From NCBI GenBank assembly GCA_027310565.1, contig DAIDAP010000034.1, positions 1-64,000 on the forward strand: a stretch of DNA of 64,000 bases, read 5' to 3'. The DNA is from Chloroflexota bacterium. Lineage in GTDB: Bacteria; Chloroflexota; Limnocylindria; P2-11E. This document shows, in pieces, positions 47,535 through 55,941 of the stretch. Position 1 is the first letter of the stretch, and each line of letters opens with the position of its first letter. Position numbers and translations under genes: made by a program. The notes under the pieces are model-generated. The model worked only from the letters and a program-made list of their open reading frames with translations, made no database searches and was not told the origin of the DNA.

Positions 47535-47969
47535 TCAGCGCTCCGACGCGAGTGGATCACGCCAGCGGATCTCGCGGAACCGGGCGAAGTCCGTGTCGGT
47601 GGAGCACACCTCGAGGCCGTGCTCGATCGCCAGCGCCGCGAGATGGCCGTCGGGGACGAGGTTCCCCGCCAGGCGATACCGCTCGACGAGACCGCCGAGC
47701 ACCTCGGCGTGCCGGTCCGTGGGGAGCGGCACCCACGCCGCCGGCGCGCCCAGCCAGTCGGCGACGAAGCGCCAGGCCGCCGCGGGGGCCAGAGGCCGAG
47801 CCGAGGCGCGCGGGTGCGTCGCGATCCGGACGAACGCGGTCAGTGACTCCCACGGCAGGCCGACGCGCCGCTGGCCGTTCAGCGCGCGCGTCATCCACGC
47901 GGCGGCCCGCTGATGGGACGGCGAGCGCGCGTCGACGGCGAAGAGGAGGACGTTGGCGTCGACGAGCAT
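47535..47969 (-). CDS. vapC: VapC-type PIN-domain toxin
   Basis: A 144-residue PIN ribonuclease. LVDANVLLFAVD at the start has the first Asp, Glu follows in LPWESLTAFVRI, and LVPDGHLAALAIEHGLEVCSTDTDFARF has the last acidic residues (read as two adjoining parts). The ATG overlaps the antitoxin stop (ATGA). VapC toxins cleave tRNA or rRNA; the target here is unknown. Confidence 0.9.
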   Translation of the reverse strand: MLVDANVLLFAVDARSPSHQRAAAWMTRALNGQRRVGLPWESLTAFVRIATHPRASARPLAPAAAWRFVADWLGAPAAWVPLPTDRHAEVLGGLVERYRLAGNLVPDGHLAALAIEHGLEVCSTDTDFARFREIRWRDPLASER

Positions 47970-48205
47970 CAGCGGCCGCGCGGGCCGTCGAGCACCTCGA
48001 GCGCTTCGGCGACGTTCGTCACGTCGATCCGAAGCCCGATGCCGGCGGAGCGCTGCTCGAACTCGGCGCGCGGCGGCCTGCGCGACAGGCCGGCCCGGAC
48101 GAGCGCGTTGATCGCCTCGCTCACGCCGACCGCGCGCTCTCGCTGGAGCCGGCGCACCGCGGCCGCCACGTCCTTCTGCAGCGTGACTGTCGTACGGATG
48201 CTCAC
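47969..48205 (-). CDS. vapB: VapB-type ribbon-helix-helix antitoxin
   Basis: A 78-residue protein. IRTTVTLQKDVAAAVRRLQ near residues 3-21 is a ribbon-helix-helix strand and helix, followed by GVSEAINALVRAGL. The C-terminal part would block the toxin. The GTG start lies inside an inverted repeat, as expected if it represses its own operon. Confidence 0.85.
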   Translation of the reverse strand: MSIRTTVTLQKDVAAAVRRLQRERAVGVSEAINALVRAGLSRRPPRAEFEQRSAGIGLRIDVTNVAEALEVLDGPRGR

Positions 48206-48253: not shown

Positions 48254-48553
48254 CTACGTCGGGACGGCCGTCCGCCGGGTCTTGCTCTTCCCGAGCTCGC
48301 AGCGCGGCGAGAAGGGCGTCACCTCGATCCACCGCTTCTCGCAGAGGTAGTGGACGACGCCGTCGGCGTCCTCGAGCGTCTCGCGCCGGTACACCTTCGC
48401 GCGCGGGATCATGAACTGGCAGTCGCCGCAGTTGGCCGGCGGCGCGGGGCGCGGGCGGCTGGCGTTCCGCAGCGCGACGAGGCCGAACACCAGGCCGACG
48501 AGGGCGAGGATGATGAGCGCGATGAGGACGGCGAGGACGGCGAGCTGCCCCAC
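48254..48553 (-). CDS. hypothetical membrane-anchored Cys-motif protein
   Basis: A 99-residue protein with one N-terminal helix (LAVLAVLIALIILALVGLVF) and a soluble part with four Cys: NCGDCQF, LCEKRW and RCELG. The C-x-x-C...C...C pattern could bind a metal. No family is recognised. GTG start with TACCGT 6 bases upstream. Confidence 0.65.
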   Translation of the reverse strand: MGQLAVLAVLIALIILALVGLVFGLVALRNASRPRPAPPANCGDCQFMIPRAKVYRRETLEDADGVVHYLCEKRWIEVTPFSPRCELGKSKTRRTAVPT

Positions 48554-48571: not shown

Positions 48572-49504
48572 GTGAAGCTCGGCATCCACGTCGGTCACCT
48601 CGGCGGTCCCCTCGAGGAGCTGCGCCGGCTGTGGCGATTCGCGGACGAGCGTGGCTTCGAATGGTTCTCGGTGTCGGACCACTTCCAGGAGACGCCGGGG
48701 CAGGGCGGGACCGGCGAGTGCTACGAGGCGGTGTCGACGCTCGCTGCCGCCGCGACCGACACGCGCCGCGTGACGGTGGGCTGTCTGGTCTTCTGCGTCG
48801 CCTACCGGCATCCCGCGCTCCTCGCCAAGGCGGTCACGACGATCGACCGCCTCTCCGGCGGCCGCGTCGCGTGCGGTCTGGGGGCGGGATGGCACGAGCC
48901 CGAGTACCGCGCGTACGGCATCCCCTTCCCGAGCGCGGCGGTGCGCGAGGACCAGCTGGCGGAGTACGCGCGGGTGCTGCGCCTCCTGTTCGACGAGGAC
49001 CGCGCGGACTTCCGTGGCGAGCACTACACGCTCGAGCACGCGCCGAGCTTCCCCAAGCCGGTGCAGGCGCACCTCCCGATCTGGATCGGCGGCGCCGGCG
49101 AGAAGCGCACCCTGCGCACCGCGGCGCGGTACGCCGACGCCTGGAACGCGCCGTACCTCTCGCCCGCGGGGTGGCGCGCGAAGAACGCCGTCCTCGACCG
49201 CTGGTGCGAGGCCGAGCGCCGCGATCCGCGCGAGGTCGTGCGCACCGTCAACGTCGGCTTCTACATGGGCGCGGACGAGGCCGGCGTGCGCCGGAGCGAG
49301 GAGCGCTACCGGCGCGAGTGGGGCACGGACGAGCGCGGCTGGACGGGCTTCCTCCGGGGGCGCGCCGCCGACGCGGCCGACCTCGTCGGCGCCTACCGCG
49401 ACGCCGGCGCGGCCCAGGTGAACGTCGCGGTGCGCGCCGGGCCGTACGACTGGGACGCGCTGGAGGCGTTCGCGACCGAGGTCATGCCACCATTCCGGAC
49501 GTGA
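48572..49504 (+). CDS. LLM-class F420-dependent oxidoreductase (second copy)
   Basis: A 310-residue luciferase-like TIM barrel, different in sequence from the one at 17435. VKLGIHVGHLGG at the start, FSVSDHFQETPGQGG, VTVGCLVFCVAYRHPALLAK, VACGLGAGWHEPEYRAYGIPF (read in two parts) and LPIWIGGAGEKRTLR are typical. It heads a forward unit with the 127-residue protein and the candidate selenoprotein; the GTGA overlap with the next gene suggests one transcript. Confidence 0.85.
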   Translation: MKLGIHVGHLGGPLEELRRLWRFADERGFEWFSVSDHFQETPGQGGTGECYEAVSTLAAAATDTRRVTVGCLVFCVAYRHPALLAKAVTTIDRLSGGRVACGLGAGWHEPEYRAYGIPFPSAAVREDQLAEYARVLRLLFDEDRADFRGEHYTLEHAPSFPKPVQAHLPIWIGGAGEKRTLRTAARYADAWNAPYLSPAGWRAKNAVLDRWCEAERRDPREVVRTVNVGFYMGADEAGVRRSEERYRREWGTDERGWTGFLRGRAADAADLVGAYRDAGAAQVNVAVRAGPYDWDALEAFATEVMPPFRT

Positions 49505-49884
49505 GCGAGCCGAAGCTGCGGCTGGAGCCGGTCGAGGCCACGCGGACGAACGGGACGTGGCGCACCTGGTGGCGCGTGACGAACGAGGGCGGGGGCGAGG
49601 TGCGGCTCCTCTCCATCCGCGCGCCGCACGCGCGGTTCCGCGCGGAGCCGGCGGACCTCGACGTCATGGTCGCGACGGCCGCGCGTGTCGAGATGAAGGT
49701 CCGCGTGGAGGCCGCCCCCGGGGAGGAGATCGAGAACGCGTTCGTCATCCTCATCGCGCGGCGCGAGCACGAGACCTGGCGGCTCATGTTCCGCGTGCGG
49801 ATCCGTCTCGACGACCGCGGGTCCCCCTGGCCGATCGTCGAGGCGCTCACGACCCATCGCGTGGGCTTCACCGAGGAGGTGTGA
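49501..49884 (+). CDS. hypothetical beta-sandwich-like protein
   Basis: A 127-residue soluble protein with alternating hydrophobic residues (LRLEPVEATRTNGTW, TWWRVTNEGGGEVRLLSI, MFRVRIRLDDRG) that suggest an immunoglobulin-like beta fold. No family recognised. Its GTG overlaps the LLM stop. Its last codons carry the GAGGAGG ribosome binding site of the candidate selenoprotein gene, so the two are linked. Confidence 0.7.
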   Translation: MSEPKLRLEPVEATRTNGTWRTWWRVTNEGGGEVRLLSIRAPHARFRAEPADLDVMVATAARVEMKVRVEAAPGEEIENAFVILIARREHETWRLMFRVRIRLDDRGSPWPIVEALTTHRVGFTEEV

Positions 49885-49885
49885 G

Positions 49886-50102
49886 ATGGAGCAGCACGAC
49901 CGGACGGTCATGCTCCGCATGAAGGGCTGACGCGGCAACTGAAGCCTCGGCTTCGAGGAGACCACGGGCATGGTCTCGAACGTGTTGGAGATGGATCAGC
50001 GCGAGCTCATCGCGCTGCTGAAGACCTTCCGGAAGAAGTACGCGGACGACGCGGAGTACGCGCGGCTGCGTGCCGCGCTGCCGAAGTCGTGGCCGTTCTG
50101 AT
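49886..50102 (+). CDS. candidate small selenoprotein with two in-frame TGA codons
   Basis: From ATG 49886 one frame runs to TGA 50100-50102 and is interrupted only by TGA 49928-49930 and TGA 49940-49942. Read as selenocysteine it gives about 71 residues: MEQHDRTVMLRMKG, U, RGN, U, then SLGFEETTGMVSNVLEMDQ and a charged helical C-terminus ending in SWPF. GAGGAGG lies 7 bases ahead of the ATG, so ribosomes should start here. The two TGAs sit in a redox-like U-x3-U spacing, and a SECIS-like hairpin follows. Alternatives are two nonsense mutations in a dying gene or a shorter start at ATG 49970. No close family is recalled. Confidence 0.6.
49952..49980 (+). promoter_or_regulatory. bacterial SECIS-like stem-loop
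   Basis: GAGACCA (49958-49964) pairs perfectly with TGGTCTC (49971-49977) around the 6-base loop CGGGCA. An extra TTC/GAA helix (49952-49954 with 49978-49980) closes below a 3-base bulge. The loop starts 22 bases after the second TGA and 34 after the first, and has G at loop position 2. These fit the published bacterial SECIS pattern (loop about 16-37 bases from UGA, G among the first two loop bases). Confidence 0.5.
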
Positions 50103-50149: not shown

Positions 50150-50920
50150 TCAGCCTCTCGGCAGTCGCACCTCGGGGTGCCGGAGCGCGAGCGGCGCGTT
50201 CCCGGCCCAGTAGACGTCGCGCCTCCCGGTCATCGCCTGGACGTGGCCGTCCCACTCGAAGTTGAACGCCTCGCAGCCCAGGCGCACCGCGCGGCGCACC
50301 CGCTCCTGCGTCGCCTCGTCGCGCGCGTGCTCGCGGATCACCGCGATCTGGCGGGCGCCGTGCCCGGTGTCCTGCTCGGCGTGCAGCTCGTACGTGGCGG
50401 CCGCCTCGCGCGGGAAGCCGTAGTGGCCGGTGAGCTCGCGGAAGACGCGCGCCGCGGCGCCGTCGGGGCCGCCGTGCATCGCCTCGACGAACGCGAGCAG
50501 CGCGATGCCTTCGAGCGCGCCGCGGTTCTGGCAGCCGGAGCGGATCATCTCGATCGCCGCAAGCGTCCCCGGCGCGGGATCCGCGCGGTCGGCCTCCTCG
50601 CGCGTGATCCCGGCGTGCGCGAGGAACCGCAGCATGACGTCGACGTGCGTCTGCTCGCCGCCGAGCTCCTCCATGAAGTTCTCCATCACGACGTCCATGA
50701 GCGCGTAGCTCCGCTCGGACGCCACGTTGGTGACGATGTAGCCGAAGAAGATCGGGTTGGTGCGCACGCGCAGGTAGTGCTGGATCTCGCCGAGGATGAT
50801 CTGCTCCCGCGACCATTTATGGTCAACGATGCCCCGGAACCAGGGGTGGTCGGGCATGAAGAGGCCGCGGGCCGTCTCCCAGAGCTCGGCGACGAAGGCG
50901 TCCGGGTCCTTCGCGGGCAC
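50150..50920 (-). CDS. PqqC/TENA-like heme-oxygenase-fold protein
   Basis: A 256-residue all-helical protein. HPWFRGIVDHKWSREQIILG, EIQHYLRVRTNPIFFGY and LTGHYGFPREAAATYELHAEQD (read in parts) match the PqqC/CADD branch of the heme-oxygenase-like fold. Conserved His/Glu residues (EIQH, HAEQDTGHG) could hold iron or a cofactor. Family members act as cofactorless or di-iron oxidases; which applies is unclear. The GTG start has TACAGT 6 bases upstream. Confidence 0.72.
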   Translation of the reverse strand: MPAKDPDAFVAELWETARGLFMPDHPWFRGIVDHKWSREQIILGEIQHYLRVRTNPIFFGYIVTNVASERSYALMDVVMENFMEELGGEQTHVDVMLRFLAHAGITREEADRADPAPGTLAAIEMIRSGCQNRGALEGIALLAFVEAMHGGPDGAAARVFRELTGHYGFPREAAATYELHAEQDTGHGARQIAVIREHARDEATQERVRRAVRLGCEAFNFEWDGHVQAMTGRRDVYWAGNAPLALRHPEVRLPRG

Positions 50921-52158: not shown

Positions 52159-52590
52159 ATGCGGACCGGCGTCCAGCGGACCACTTTCAGGCTCCTCGGA
52201 CGGTCTGACCTTCCCCGTCTGGCGGAGCTCTCGTCCCGCCTCGGCGCCGAGACGTCGGCCGACTGGGCCGAGCGGCTCGGCCACCACGACGCCGTCGTGC
52301 TCGGCGCCGAGATCGAGGGCACGCTCGTCGGCTACGCCGCCGCGGAGATCCGCCGCGCCTTCGGGCGCAGCCCGCGCGCCGCGTGGGTCGACGCCTTCGG
52401 CGTGGACCTGGCGCAGCGCGGCCACGGCGTCGGCCGCGCGCTCGCCACCGAGCTGCTCGCCCGCCTGCGCGAGCGCGGCGCCGAGCACGTCTCGACGCTC
52501 GTCCCGGTCCACGACCGCGAGCTGGGCCCGTTCTTCCGCGAGCTCGGATTCCGCGGCGAGGCGCTCCAGTGCATCGGGAGGGCGCTGTGA
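52159..52590 (+). CDS. GNAT-family N-acetyltransferase
   Basis: A 143-residue GNAT protein. FRLLGRSDLPRLAELSSRLG is the N-terminal strand-helix, DAFGVDLAQRGHGVGRALATELL contains the acetyl-CoA loop (R-G-H-G-V-G, a form of Q/R-x-x-G-x-G/A), and LGPFFRELGFR the final strand. The substrate is unknown; it may modify a CoA-pathway protein. It is first in the operon, and its stop overlaps the next GTG, so it is co-translated with the reductase subunits. Confidence 0.85.
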   Translation: MRTGVQRTTFRLLGRSDLPRLAELSSRLGAETSADWAERLGHHDAVVLGAEIEGTLVGYAAAEIRRAFGRSPRAAWVDAFGVDLAQRGHGVGRALATELLARLRERGAEHVSTLVPVHDRELGPFFRELGFRGEALQCIGRAL

Positions 52591-53753
52591 CGCTCACCAC
52601 CTTCGCCCCGCTCCCCGTCGTCGAGGAGTACCGCGAGATCGTCGAGGACCGCGGCTACCCCACCGTCCGCGAGTGGAAGCGCCGCACCGGGCGGGCGGCC
52701 GTGGGGAGCTTCCCGGTGTACTCCCCGGTCGAGATCACGCACGCCGCCGGCATGCTGCCGGTCGGGCTGTTCGGCGCCGGGAACCAGATCGAGATGGCGC
52801 ACGCCGACTCGCGCTTCCAGTCCTTCATCTGCTCCATCGTGAAGAGCACGCTCGAGCTGGCGTTCGTCGACAAGCTCGCGCCGTTCGACGCGCTGCTCTT
52901 CCATTCGATCTGCGACCCCGCGCGCAACCTCGCCTCGGTCATGGCGCGCAACTTCCCCGAGCGCCGTGCGATCTACGTCCACCTGCCGCAGAACATGGCC
53001 TCGAGCGGCGCCGCGGAGTACTACGCGTACGAGCTGCGACGCGTCGCCGCGGAGCTCGGCGCGGTGTCGGGGCGCGTCCCCAGCGACGAGGACGTCCTCG
53101 AGAGCATCGTGGCGTTCAACGCGATGCGCTCCCGGCTCCGCGACCTCTACGCGCTGCGCGCGGAGCGTCCGGCGAACCTCTCGACGGCCGAGCTCTACAC
53201 GCTCGCGCGCATGGCGACGTTCACCGACCCCCTCGAGTCCGAGCCGCTCCTCGCCGACTCGCTGCGCTCCGCGACGACGCGAGACGCGCGGCCGAAGGAC
53301 CGCATCCGCGTCGTCGTGGTCGGCTCCTTCTGCGAGCAGCCGCCGCTCGAGCTCATCGCGGGCATCGAGGAGTCCGGCTGCTACATCCTCGACGACGACT
53401 TCCTGCTCGGCTGGCGGCTGTTCAGGACGGACGTCCCGGTGGACGGCGACCCGTACCTCGCGCTCGCGCGCGCGTACCTCGACGGCAGCCTTCACGCGAG
53501 CACGAAGCACGACCTGCGCGTGCCGCGCGCCGCGGGCCTCGTGGCGAGCGCGCGCGCGAACCGCGCCGACGCGGTGATCTTCCTCGGCGCCAAGTTCTGC
53601 GAGCCGGGTCTCTTCGATTACGCGCTGTACCGCCGCGCGCTCGAGCAGGAGGGCATCCCGCACCTGTTCCTCGAGTTCGAGGAGAAGATGTGGATGTACG
53701 ACCGGATCAGGACGGAGGTCGAGACCTTCGTGGAATCGATGCTGTTCGTATGA
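52587..53753 (+). CDS. bzdN: benzoyl-CoA reductase, BcrC/BzdN-type subunit
   Basis: A 388-residue member of the 2-hydroxyacyl-CoA dehydratase D family, matching BcrC/BzdN in length. ITHAAGMLPVGLFGAGNQIEM, SRFQSFICSIVKSTLELAF (Cys 82), FHSICDPARNLAS (Cys 109) and GAKFCEPGLFDY provide likely Fe-S ligand cysteines. With the next subunit it holds the substrate and the cluster that reduces the aromatic ring. GGGAGG precedes the GTG start, which also overlaps the GNAT stop. The hydroxyacyl-CoA dehydratase alternative is made unlikely by the neighbours. Confidence 0.82.
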   Translation: MTLTTFAPLPVVEEYREIVEDRGYPTVREWKRRTGRAAVGSFPVYSPVEITHAAGMLPVGLFGAGNQIEMAHADSRFQSFICSIVKSTLELAFVDKLAPFDALLFHSICDPARNLASVMARNFPERRAIYVHLPQNMASSGAAEYYAYELRRVAAELGAVSGRVPSDEDVLESIVAFNAMRSRLRDLYALRAERPANLSTAELYTLARMATFTDPLESEPLLADSLRSATTRDARPKDRIRVVVVGSFCEQPPLELIAGIEESGCYILDDDFLLGWRLFRTDVPVDGDPYLALARAYLDGSLHASTKHDLRVPRAAGLVASARANRADAVIFLGAKFCEPGLFDYALYRRALEQEGIPHLFLEFEEKMWMYDRIRTEVETFVESMLFV

Positions 53754-55144
53754 CCGAGCACCACGGCGCTCCGGACCATGACATGACGGGCCACCACGAG
53801 GCCCCGCCGCGGGAGAGCCCCCCGGCCGCCGCGCGGCGCGCTCCCGTCGAGACGGCGAAGGCGGAGCCCGTCCACTACCAGGGCAGGGTCCACGAGCTCC
53901 AGAAGGAGCTCATGAACGCGTACTACGCCGAGCTCACCGACATCGCCAAGGGCCGCTCGCCCAAGAAGAACGCGCACCTGCTCATCGCCGGCAACCCGGT
54001 CGAGCTGGTGCGCGCGTTCGACATGGTCCCGGTGTTCCCCGAGGTGAACGTGCTGCAGATCGCGGCGCGCAAGGCCTCGCTCCCGCTCATCCAGAAGGCC
54101 GAGGAGCTCGGCTACGCCGTGGACAACTGCGCGTACGTGAAGGCGGACGTCGGCCTCTACCTCTCGGGATACGAGGCGCCGTACGGCACCGTGCCGAAGG
54201 CGGACCTGCTGCTCTGCAACTACGTCGGCTGCAACGTCTACCTGAACTGGTTCGAGCACCTCGCCGAGCTCACCGGGGCGCCGGCGGTGAACATCGACAT
54301 CCCGTTCATCCGCTCGGCCGACGGCGAGCCGTCGCCGCAGGACATCGCGTACGTGGTGAAGCAGCTCGAGGAGCTCATCGGGCTGCTCGAGCGGACCACC
54401 GGGACGACGCTCGACTGGAAGAAGCTCCAGCGCACCGTGGAGCTGTCGGCGTACGTCGGCGAGATGTGGGCCGAGATCAAGGCCCTCACGCAGCTCCGTC
54501 CCGCGCCGTACGACGCGTACTTCGACTCGGTCACGATGATGGCCGTCCTGTACTGCCTGCGCGGCACCGAGGAGGCGGCCCGCTTCTTCGAGACCGCCGT
54601 CGCCGACCTGAAGGAGCGCGCCGCGCTCGGGAAGGGTCCGCTCCCGGAGGAGCGCTTCCGCGTCGTCATCGAGGGTCCGCCGCCGTGGCCGTTCCTGCGC
54701 GTGTTCCGCGACATGTTCACGCGCTGGGGCGCCGTCGCCGTGGCGTCGACGTACTCGACGGTCGGCGGGATCTGGGAGTTCGGCTTCCGCCACGACCCGC
54801 AGCGGCCGCTCGAGAGCATCGCGCGGCACATGCTCGCGCAGAACCTCTGCAACCGGACGTTCCTCCAGCGCTACGACCAGATGGCGCGCTACGTCGACGA
54901 GTGGAAGGCCGACGCGATCGTGATCCATTCGGTGAAGTCCTGCCGGTTGTTCTCGGCGGGCCAGGGCGACATGCGCGAGTACTTCGCGCGCGAGCGCGAG
55001 GTCCCCACCCTGCTCATCGAGTCCGACCTCGAGGACCCGCGCTACTTCTCGCAGGCGCAGCTGCGCAACCGCATCGACGCGTTCTTCGAGGCGCTCACGC
55101 AGCGGCGGATCACCGCCGCGGCGGCGGCGGGAGGTGTGGCATGA
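53750..55144 (+). CDS. bzdO: benzoyl-CoA reductase, BcrB/BzdO-type subunit
   Basis: A 464-residue 2-hydroxyacyl-CoA dehydratase-family subunit. Core features are [42 protein letters not shown] (read in parts), [19 protein letters not shown] and [18 protein letters not shown], which give the Cys ligands. The first 40 residues, with five His in [17 protein letters not shown], extend beyond the usual start and could be a linker or metal-binding tag. ATG overlaps the bzdN-like stop and its TGA overlaps the next ATG. Confidence 0.82.
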
Positions 55145-55941
55145 GGTACGCCGTGGGCGTCGACGTCGGCTCCACCCAGACGAAGGCGCTCCTGCTGGAC
55201 GAGAGCGGCACGATCGTCGCGCGCTCGCTCATCGACACCGGCGCATACCTCGTCCGCGCCGCCGAGCGCTCGCTCGAGGCCGCTCTGGCGGAGGCGGGCG
55301 TGAGCCGGAACGACGTCGGCTACGCGATCGGCACCGGGTACGGGCGCTTCAAGGTCGCGTTCGGCGACGACCAGGTGACCGAGATCTCCTGCCACGCCAA
55401 GGGTGCCTGGTCGCTCTTCCCGAAGACACGGACGGTGATCGACATCGGCGGGCAGGACACCAAGGCGATCAAGGTGAGCGACCGCGGCGAGGTCCTGGAC
55501 TTCGCGATGAACGACAAGTGCGCCGCCGGGAGCGGCCGCTTCCTCTCGAACTCCGCGGAGGCGCTGGGGCTGGACGTGAGCGAGATCGGCGCGCGCTCGC
55601 TCGACGCGAAGACGCCGGTGCGCCTCTCCACCGTGTGCACGATCTTCGTCGAGACCGACATCCTCTCCTACCTCGCCTCCGGGAAGAAGACCGAGGACAT
55701 CCTCGCGGGCGTGCACGGCGCCATCGGCGCGCGCACCATCGCGCTCGTGCGCCGCGTCGGCGCCGAGCCCGAGATCACCTTCACCGGCGGCGTCGCGCGG
55801 AACGTCGGGATGGTCCGCGCGGTCCAGGAGAAGCTCGGCCTCGAGGTGAACGTGAGCCCGGACTCGCACTACACCGGCGCGCTCGGCGCGGCCGTCTTCG
55901 CTCTGGAGCGGATGACCGCGGCCGCTCAGGTGCTCGCATGA
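55141..55941 (+). CDS. bzdP: benzoyl-CoA reductase, BcrA/BzdP-type ATPase subunit
   Basis: A 266-residue ASKHA-fold ATPase of the BadF/BcrA/HgdC family. [16 protein letters not shown] is the phosphate-1 motif, [14 protein letters not shown] the phosphate-2 motif, and [12 protein letters not shown] and [14 protein letters not shown] hold the Cys that bind the shared [4Fe-4S] cluster. [15 protein letters not shown] is near the C-terminus. ATP hydrolysis drives low-potential electrons to the N/O pair. The short length resembles the Azoarcus-type subunit. Confidence 0.82.

Follow-up and report, generated by a model that had tools for sequence, protein, structure and literature searches.

Two explanations may account for a short frame that has a good ribosome-binding site but is interrupted by two in-frame TGA codons. 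It could be the remnant of an ordinary gene, or it could encode a selenoprotein in which both UGA codons are read as selenocysteine (Sec). Such a frame lies in the window, by which we mean the whole 64,000-nucleotide stretch of Chloroflexota DNA analysed here. A first-pass annotation of this DNA had favoured the selenoprotein reading, which our comparisons support. We put at about 90% the probability of what we consider the overall best explanation, namely, that the gene is intact and encodes a 71-residue protein with two Sec residues, whose insertion at the protein level we infer from comparative sequence data.

Gene structure

The putative gene and its signals are as follows.

49886..50101, + strand: putative double-selenoprotein gene, 71 residues (U15-x3-U19), ATG to TGA stop
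49873..49879, + strand: Shine-Dalgarno sequence GAGGAGG, 6 nt 5' of the ATG
49928..49930, + strand: UGA codon 1 (UGA1; putative Sec15), TGA in 28/30 genomes and TGC or TGT in the other two
49940..49942, + strand: UGA codon 2 (UGA2; putative Sec19), TGA in 29/30 genomes and TGT in one; within the 5' arm of hairpin I

With both UGAs read as Sec, the product of 49886-50101 is MEQHDRTVMLRMKGU-RGN-USLGFEETTGMVSNVLEMDQRELIALLKTFRKKYADDAEYARLRAALPKSWPF-stop. The frame from ATG 49886, the TGA codons at 49928 and 49940 with their U-RGN-U motif, and the good ribosome-binding site are all present exactly as first annotated; only the end, placed at 50102, was one base too far, since the true stop is the TGA at 50099-50101. 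Annotation pipelines cut this gene to a 14-residue fragment, which explains why it is invisible in databases.

Conservation of the two UGA positions

Six-frame searches of whole genomes recovered the family in 30 Chloroflexota genomes, comprising 22 of 29 from the window's own order and 8 of 29 from a second Chloroflexota class. The 30 homologues are 44-79% identical to the window protein, and the family spans at least six families in the two classes. Of 400 genomes sampled from the phylum, 17 contain it once one spurious match is excluded (G340, E 3.7e-5), which contained one TAG, covered only 39 columns, and was missing the motif. No relatives were found among viral contigs and plasmids.

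At both sites, the homologues carry TGA or Cys and no other residue, as expected of a selenoprotein family: 28 have TGA and two have Cys at the first site, and for the second site the counts are 29 and one. Namely, one genome is Cys/Sec (G006), one is Cys/Cys (G224), and the remaining 28 are Sec/Sec. A pattern scan of the genome contigs for TGY at both Sec sites matched a single contig. In a protein tree with modest support, the Cys/Cys sequence lies beside a Sec/Sec member and the Cys/Sec sequence amid Sec/Sec members; this placement suggests that the direction of change was from Sec to Cys.

Invariant residues lie on either side of the UGAs and reach the C terminus (R11, G14, E24, T26, G28, M29, V30, R62, P66, W69, and P70). 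Over codons 32-71, comparison of the window gene with its 14 nearest relatives gave a dN of 0.20-0.34 and a dS of 0.58-1.54, whereas in between-class comparisons dS is often saturated and the dN/dS contrast is weaker. On these estimates, the codons 3' of the UGAs show purifying selection. Given their recurrence in 28 of 30 genomes and, among close relatives, a dN well below dS after the SECIS region, the two in-frame TGAs are far beyond chance.

Selenocysteine machinery

A selenoprotein reading calls for the Sec genes, and selA, selB, selD, and tRNA-Sec were all found in the window genome. SelA (505.8 bits; cut-off, 267.9) is encoded directly upstream of SelB (318.8 bits; cut-off, 242.25), the tRNA-Sec has the anticodon TCA (73.9 bits), and the SelD gene holds one in-frame TGA of its own. 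RF01852 also matched, more weakly and only just above the cut-off (52.7 bits), at G000:C26:8599-8684 and at similar places in relatives; this second match is probably a long-arm tRNA such as tRNA-Ser.

Among the 29 Sec-encoding genomes, tRNA-Sec exceeds the cut-off in 25 and SelB in 27, and none lacks both; the gaps fall mostly in incomplete genomes. The Cys/Cys genome is the sole one of the 30 with neither SelB nor tRNA-Sec over the cut-off, and no SelD exceeds the cut-off there either. Since this genome is 80% complete, the absence of its Sec genes is suggestive.

SECIS-like element

Recoding of UGA as Sec would lead one to expect a SECIS hairpin 3' of the TGA codons, and a SECIS-like element with covariation is present there.

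49940..49955, + strand: hairpin I, 6 bp with a 4-nt loop and compensatory changes; its 5' arm contains UGA2
49958..49977, + strand: hairpin II, candidate SelB-binding stem-loop, 7 bp
49965-49970, + strand: apical loop CGGGYA of hairpin II, 34 nt after UGA1 and 22 nt after UGA2

Both hairpins were predicted de novo by RNAalifold, and pairing holds in 96.5% of the cells at paired positions, where slid controls reach no more than 46%. Double-sided compensatory changes affect three pairs (7 cells versus 1.4 in shuffles; 0/500). When synonymous codons were randomised according to local codon usage (2000 runs per hairpin), hairpin I kept 110 pairs against 79.5 +/- 4.4 (maximum, 93) and hairpin II 132 against 98.7 +/- 5.2 (maximum, 115), although the shuffle and randomisation figures overstate independence because the genomes are related. 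Wobble bases are frozen within hairpin II, where ACC occurs in 30/30 and GTC in 29/30 sequences, and free elsewhere, with GAA or GAG at E24 and four codons each for P66, R62, and P70. Like the randomisation, this difference supports a constraint at the RNA level.

The sole GTT within hairpin II belongs to the Cys/Cys member, which is also the only sequence in a 20-sequence alignment in which hairpin I loses most of its pairs (4/6). The predicted energy of hairpin II is -9.2 kcal/mol in most members and -7.6 in one (G210); only the Cys/Cys member is as weak as -6.6. Published rules for bacterial SECIS elements (bSECIS) specify a stem of 4-16 bp, a loop of 3-9 nt with a G within its first two positions, a distance of 16-37 nt from the UGA, and an MFE of -7.5 kcal/mol or lower (PMC13188914). 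With 7 bp, a 6-nt loop, and distances of 22 and 34 nt, hairpin II agrees with these rules for both UGAs.

The SelD genes of the same Chloroflexota offer a comparison. Their SECIS also consists of two successive covarying hairpins, the second with a G at the start of the loop, which lies 33 nt after the UGA, close to the 34 nt that separate UGA1 from the loop of hairpin II. In contrast, SelD contains a single UGA and its loop is a 3-nt GUS, while the double-selenoprotein element has a 6-nt CGGGYA loop and carries UGA2 inside hairpin I. This SelD layout is found in eight genomes (L086-L091, L078, and L079), with 5 covarying pairs across both stems; it is perhaps a lineage-wide form of SECIS.

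Proposed recoding of the UGA codons

We propose that a single two-hairpin element would recode both UGAs, with SelB binding the apical loop of hairpin II. With UGA1 in the A site, hairpin I would be folded and span the 34 nt to the loop of hairpin II, as in SelD genes. Once the ribosome reached UGA2, hairpin I, which contains this codon, would be melted, leaving the loop of hairpin II 22 nt away. Hairpin I persists in the Cys/Sec genome, where the spacer model no longer needs it. We regard it as reasonably probable that hairpin II serves both codons with hairpin I as a spacer. A separate SECIS for each codon, with hairpin I acting on UGA1 and hairpin II on UGA2, would match two stem-loops to two UGAs, and the loop of hairpin I begins 15 nt after UGA1, near the 16-37 nt rule. 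Yet this loop is variable and many members have no G at its first two positions (CTCG, CAAG), against the bSECIS rule (PMC13188914), and SelD has both hairpins despite its single UGA; we therefore consider this arrangement unlikely.

That both UGAs become Sec is nearly certain from the comparative evidence, given what the other explanations would require. If two point mutations had turned Cys codons of an ordinary protein into stops, or if the assembly were in error, a single MAG-type assembly would look just like the window, and one true relic is known, in which the frame breaks right after UGA1 (G011, described below). However, the same two TGAs occur in 28 independent assemblies from at least six families and two classes, dN is lower than dS 3' of the stops, and the RNA hairpins are conserved; by the conservation observed across these sequences the pseudogene reading is already refuted, and we give it next to no weight. 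Translation of UGA as another amino acid (e.g., Trp, Cys, or Gly), through a changed code or plain readthrough, is scarcely more credible: UGA reassignment exists in some lineages and some readthrough occurs at any UGA, but here TGA is a normal stop that ends c0, the LLM gene (both described below), and the selenoprotein gene itself. Moreover, Cys is the only replacement of UGA, and SelA, SelB, SelD, and tRNA-Sec(UCA) are present together with the SECIS-like element 3' of the codons.

Partner genes

Three neighbouring genes bear on the function of the putative selenoprotein.

48572..49504, + strand: LLM-class F420-dependent oxidoreductase (TIGR03560, PF00296)
49501..49884, + strand: c0, 127-aa cytosolic-looking beta-sandwich protein (8 strands, pLDDT 95), GTG start
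50150..50920, - strand: c1, 256-aa haem-oxygenase-like dimetal oxidase (HDO; PF14518), convergent neighbour

The GTG of c0 overlaps the stop of the LLM-type gene, and 1 nt separates the c0 stop from the selenoprotein ATG; the three genes are probably cotranscribed in the window genome. The link to an F420-type operon suggested by the first-pass annotation holds in close relatives, where the LLM gene is indeed a neighbour, but not as a constant partnership, as it accounts for only 15 of 30 loci. In most genomes, c0 is directly upstream of the selenoprotein gene or has one gene in between, and c1 is usually convergent and downstream. In five relatives (L051, L057, L058, L059, and L062), c0 is separated from the selenoprotein gene by an inserted gene for a 694-701-aa protein resembling a glycoside hydrolase or a phosphorylase.

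Genome-wide, c0 accompanies the selenoprotein in 30/30 genomes and occurs in 1/35 of those that lack it. The orthologue of c1 (64-89% identical) is present in 29/30 and 0/35, respectively, the sole gap being a genome whose contig ends inside the c1 gene (G025). Across the 400 phylum genomes, the 17 that have a c1 orthologue are precisely the 17 that have the selenoprotein; identity is at least 64% inside this orthologous group and at most 30% to its next relatives. G011 is the single genome with c0 and no full selenoprotein (L098:440-1400, G011:C141). There, c0 is intact, c1 is lost from the genome, and downstream of c0 the selenoprotein gene survives as its first 16 codons, broken soon after UGA1, the remainder having disappeared. 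Judging from these remains, the module is decaying in G011.

No Pfam or NCBIfam family matched c0, and its fold had no specific PDB match. A set of six Glu, His, and Asp ligands is established for the HDO superfamily. The c1 protein scores 67.8 bits against PF14518 (cut-off, 28.9; E 1.4e-18) and, aligned to 1rcw, keeps Glu/His/Glu/His/Asp/His at the six ligand positions; with this haem-oxygenase-like domain and ligand set, it belongs to the superfamily. Like UndA, SznF, BesC, and CADD/p-aminobenzoate (pABA) synthase, c1 has PF14518, and it aligns with the ligand positions of CT610/CADD; unlike them, it forms a separate orthologous group. A CADD-type pABA synthase was considered and rejected: c1 reaches 45.9 bits against a cut-off of 200, and the position of Lys152, which donates the amine in CADD (PMC11965152), is occupied by Val, Leu, or Met; of the self-sacrificing Tyr/Lys pair of CADD, the alignment covers the Lys.

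Taken as a whole, the picture of an obligate three-gene module of double-Sec protein, HDO, and c0, in which the hairpin containing UGA2 is a folding spacer and one SelB-binding stem-loop serves both UGAs, is one we advance tentatively, at slightly less than even odds.

Predicted fold and function

Structure prediction gave four helices for the selenoprotein (pLDDT 93), with U15 and U19 on the same face of helix 1, close to its end and separated by one turn (i/i+4), a modelled geometry that could suit a metal site or a selenol pair. No significant PDB relative was found by sequence or by fold, with no match below E 0.6. The earlier proposal of a small thiol/selenol redox protein is one that we infer, and a redox or metal role is suggested by the U-x3-U chemistry and the gene partners, the fold having no PDB match. 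That the selenoprotein works with the HDO enzyme seems likely. Delivery of electrons or metal to the dimetal site is a more speculative possibility, in which the two selenols would let the protein serve the neighbouring HDO specifically, through redox chemistry or metal loading, with c0 as a third component.

The obligate pairing of a small protein with an oxygenase could also mean that the 71-mer is the substrate of the HDO, Sec or another residue being modified into a peptide-derived cofactor or product. Amino acids are known substrates of HDO enzymes, one of which excises a residue from its own chain (PMC13108848, PMC11965152). Yet conservation over the whole length, including the C-terminal LPxxWP, and a confident, compact predicted fold suggest a folded partner, and there is neither a leader/core layout nor a peptidase nearby; we consider this role improbable. 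Even less probable is a small redox-sensing DNA-binding regulator with a LuxR-type HTH-like fold. The DNA-binding domain of ComA is the best Foldseek match (E 0.63; TM 0.58/0.69), and NarL and RhlR-type domains are among the matches, but the E-values are not significant and no HTH family in Pfam or NCBIfam matches the protein. We retain a partner of the HDO as the preferred reading.

Relation to known selenoprotein families

Scans of Pfam, NCBIfam, and PHROGs with single members and with all members returned no family above the cut-off. Weak radical-SAM matches (E 0.0024) covered only a short GCxxNC motif, with the third cluster Cys missing, and this identity was rejected. No UxxxU family appears in Table 1 of a May 2026 catalogue of 119 prokaryotic selenoprotein families (PMC13188914), to which we compared our family by motif; the comparison with NCBIfam (June 2026) was by profile. 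Nor did we find an earlier report of a Chloroflexota U-x3-U family in the open-access literature. From these comparisons, the sequences very probably represent a new, unrecorded selenoprotein family, with members recovered from two classes of Chloroflexota.

Several listed proteins have paired Sec residues (UxxU Prx-like, UxxU FmdB-like and NF041115, UxxxxU TsoB, and the double selenoprotein MbdU; PMC13188914, Table 1). Like the 71-mer, they have two close in-frame UGAs, Sec machinery, a paired redox-type motif, and Cys homologues. The Chloroflexota protein differs from them in its U-x3-U spacing, in having no NCBIfam sequence or profile match, in its four helices without a thioredoxin or rhodanese fold, and in that one hairpin of its SECIS-like element contains UGA2. 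The HDO module and the sharing of one SECIS could prove to be the more unusual parts.

If this reading is right, the selenoproteome gains a family whose motif is U-x3-U and whose fold has no known relative, and the gene offers a compact natural system for testing how SECIS elements are shared by two UGAs 12 nt apart. Recoding at each UGA is only about 30-40% efficient in Escherichia coli (PMC4513850); that two UGAs are kept across classes implies a strong importance of Sec at each site. Attention is also drawn to an uncharacterised HDO, which in no sampled genome occurred without the selenoprotein, and, if the module reading is true, this would be the first selenoprotein dedicated to an HDO enzyme.

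Other genes in the window

Upstream of the LLM gene, 48254-48553 (-) encodes a 99-aa protein that has a CxxC motif and a membrane segment at its N terminus and whose position is kept in 14 relatives (cluster c3). From visual inspection of the translations, 47535-48205 (-) holds a probable VapBC-type toxin-antitoxin pair (PIN-like toxin and ribbon-helix-helix-like antitoxin), and the genes at 52500-55941 (+) resemble a 2-hydroxyacyl-CoA dehydratase/benzoyl-CoA reductase-type pair together with its ATP-dependent activase.
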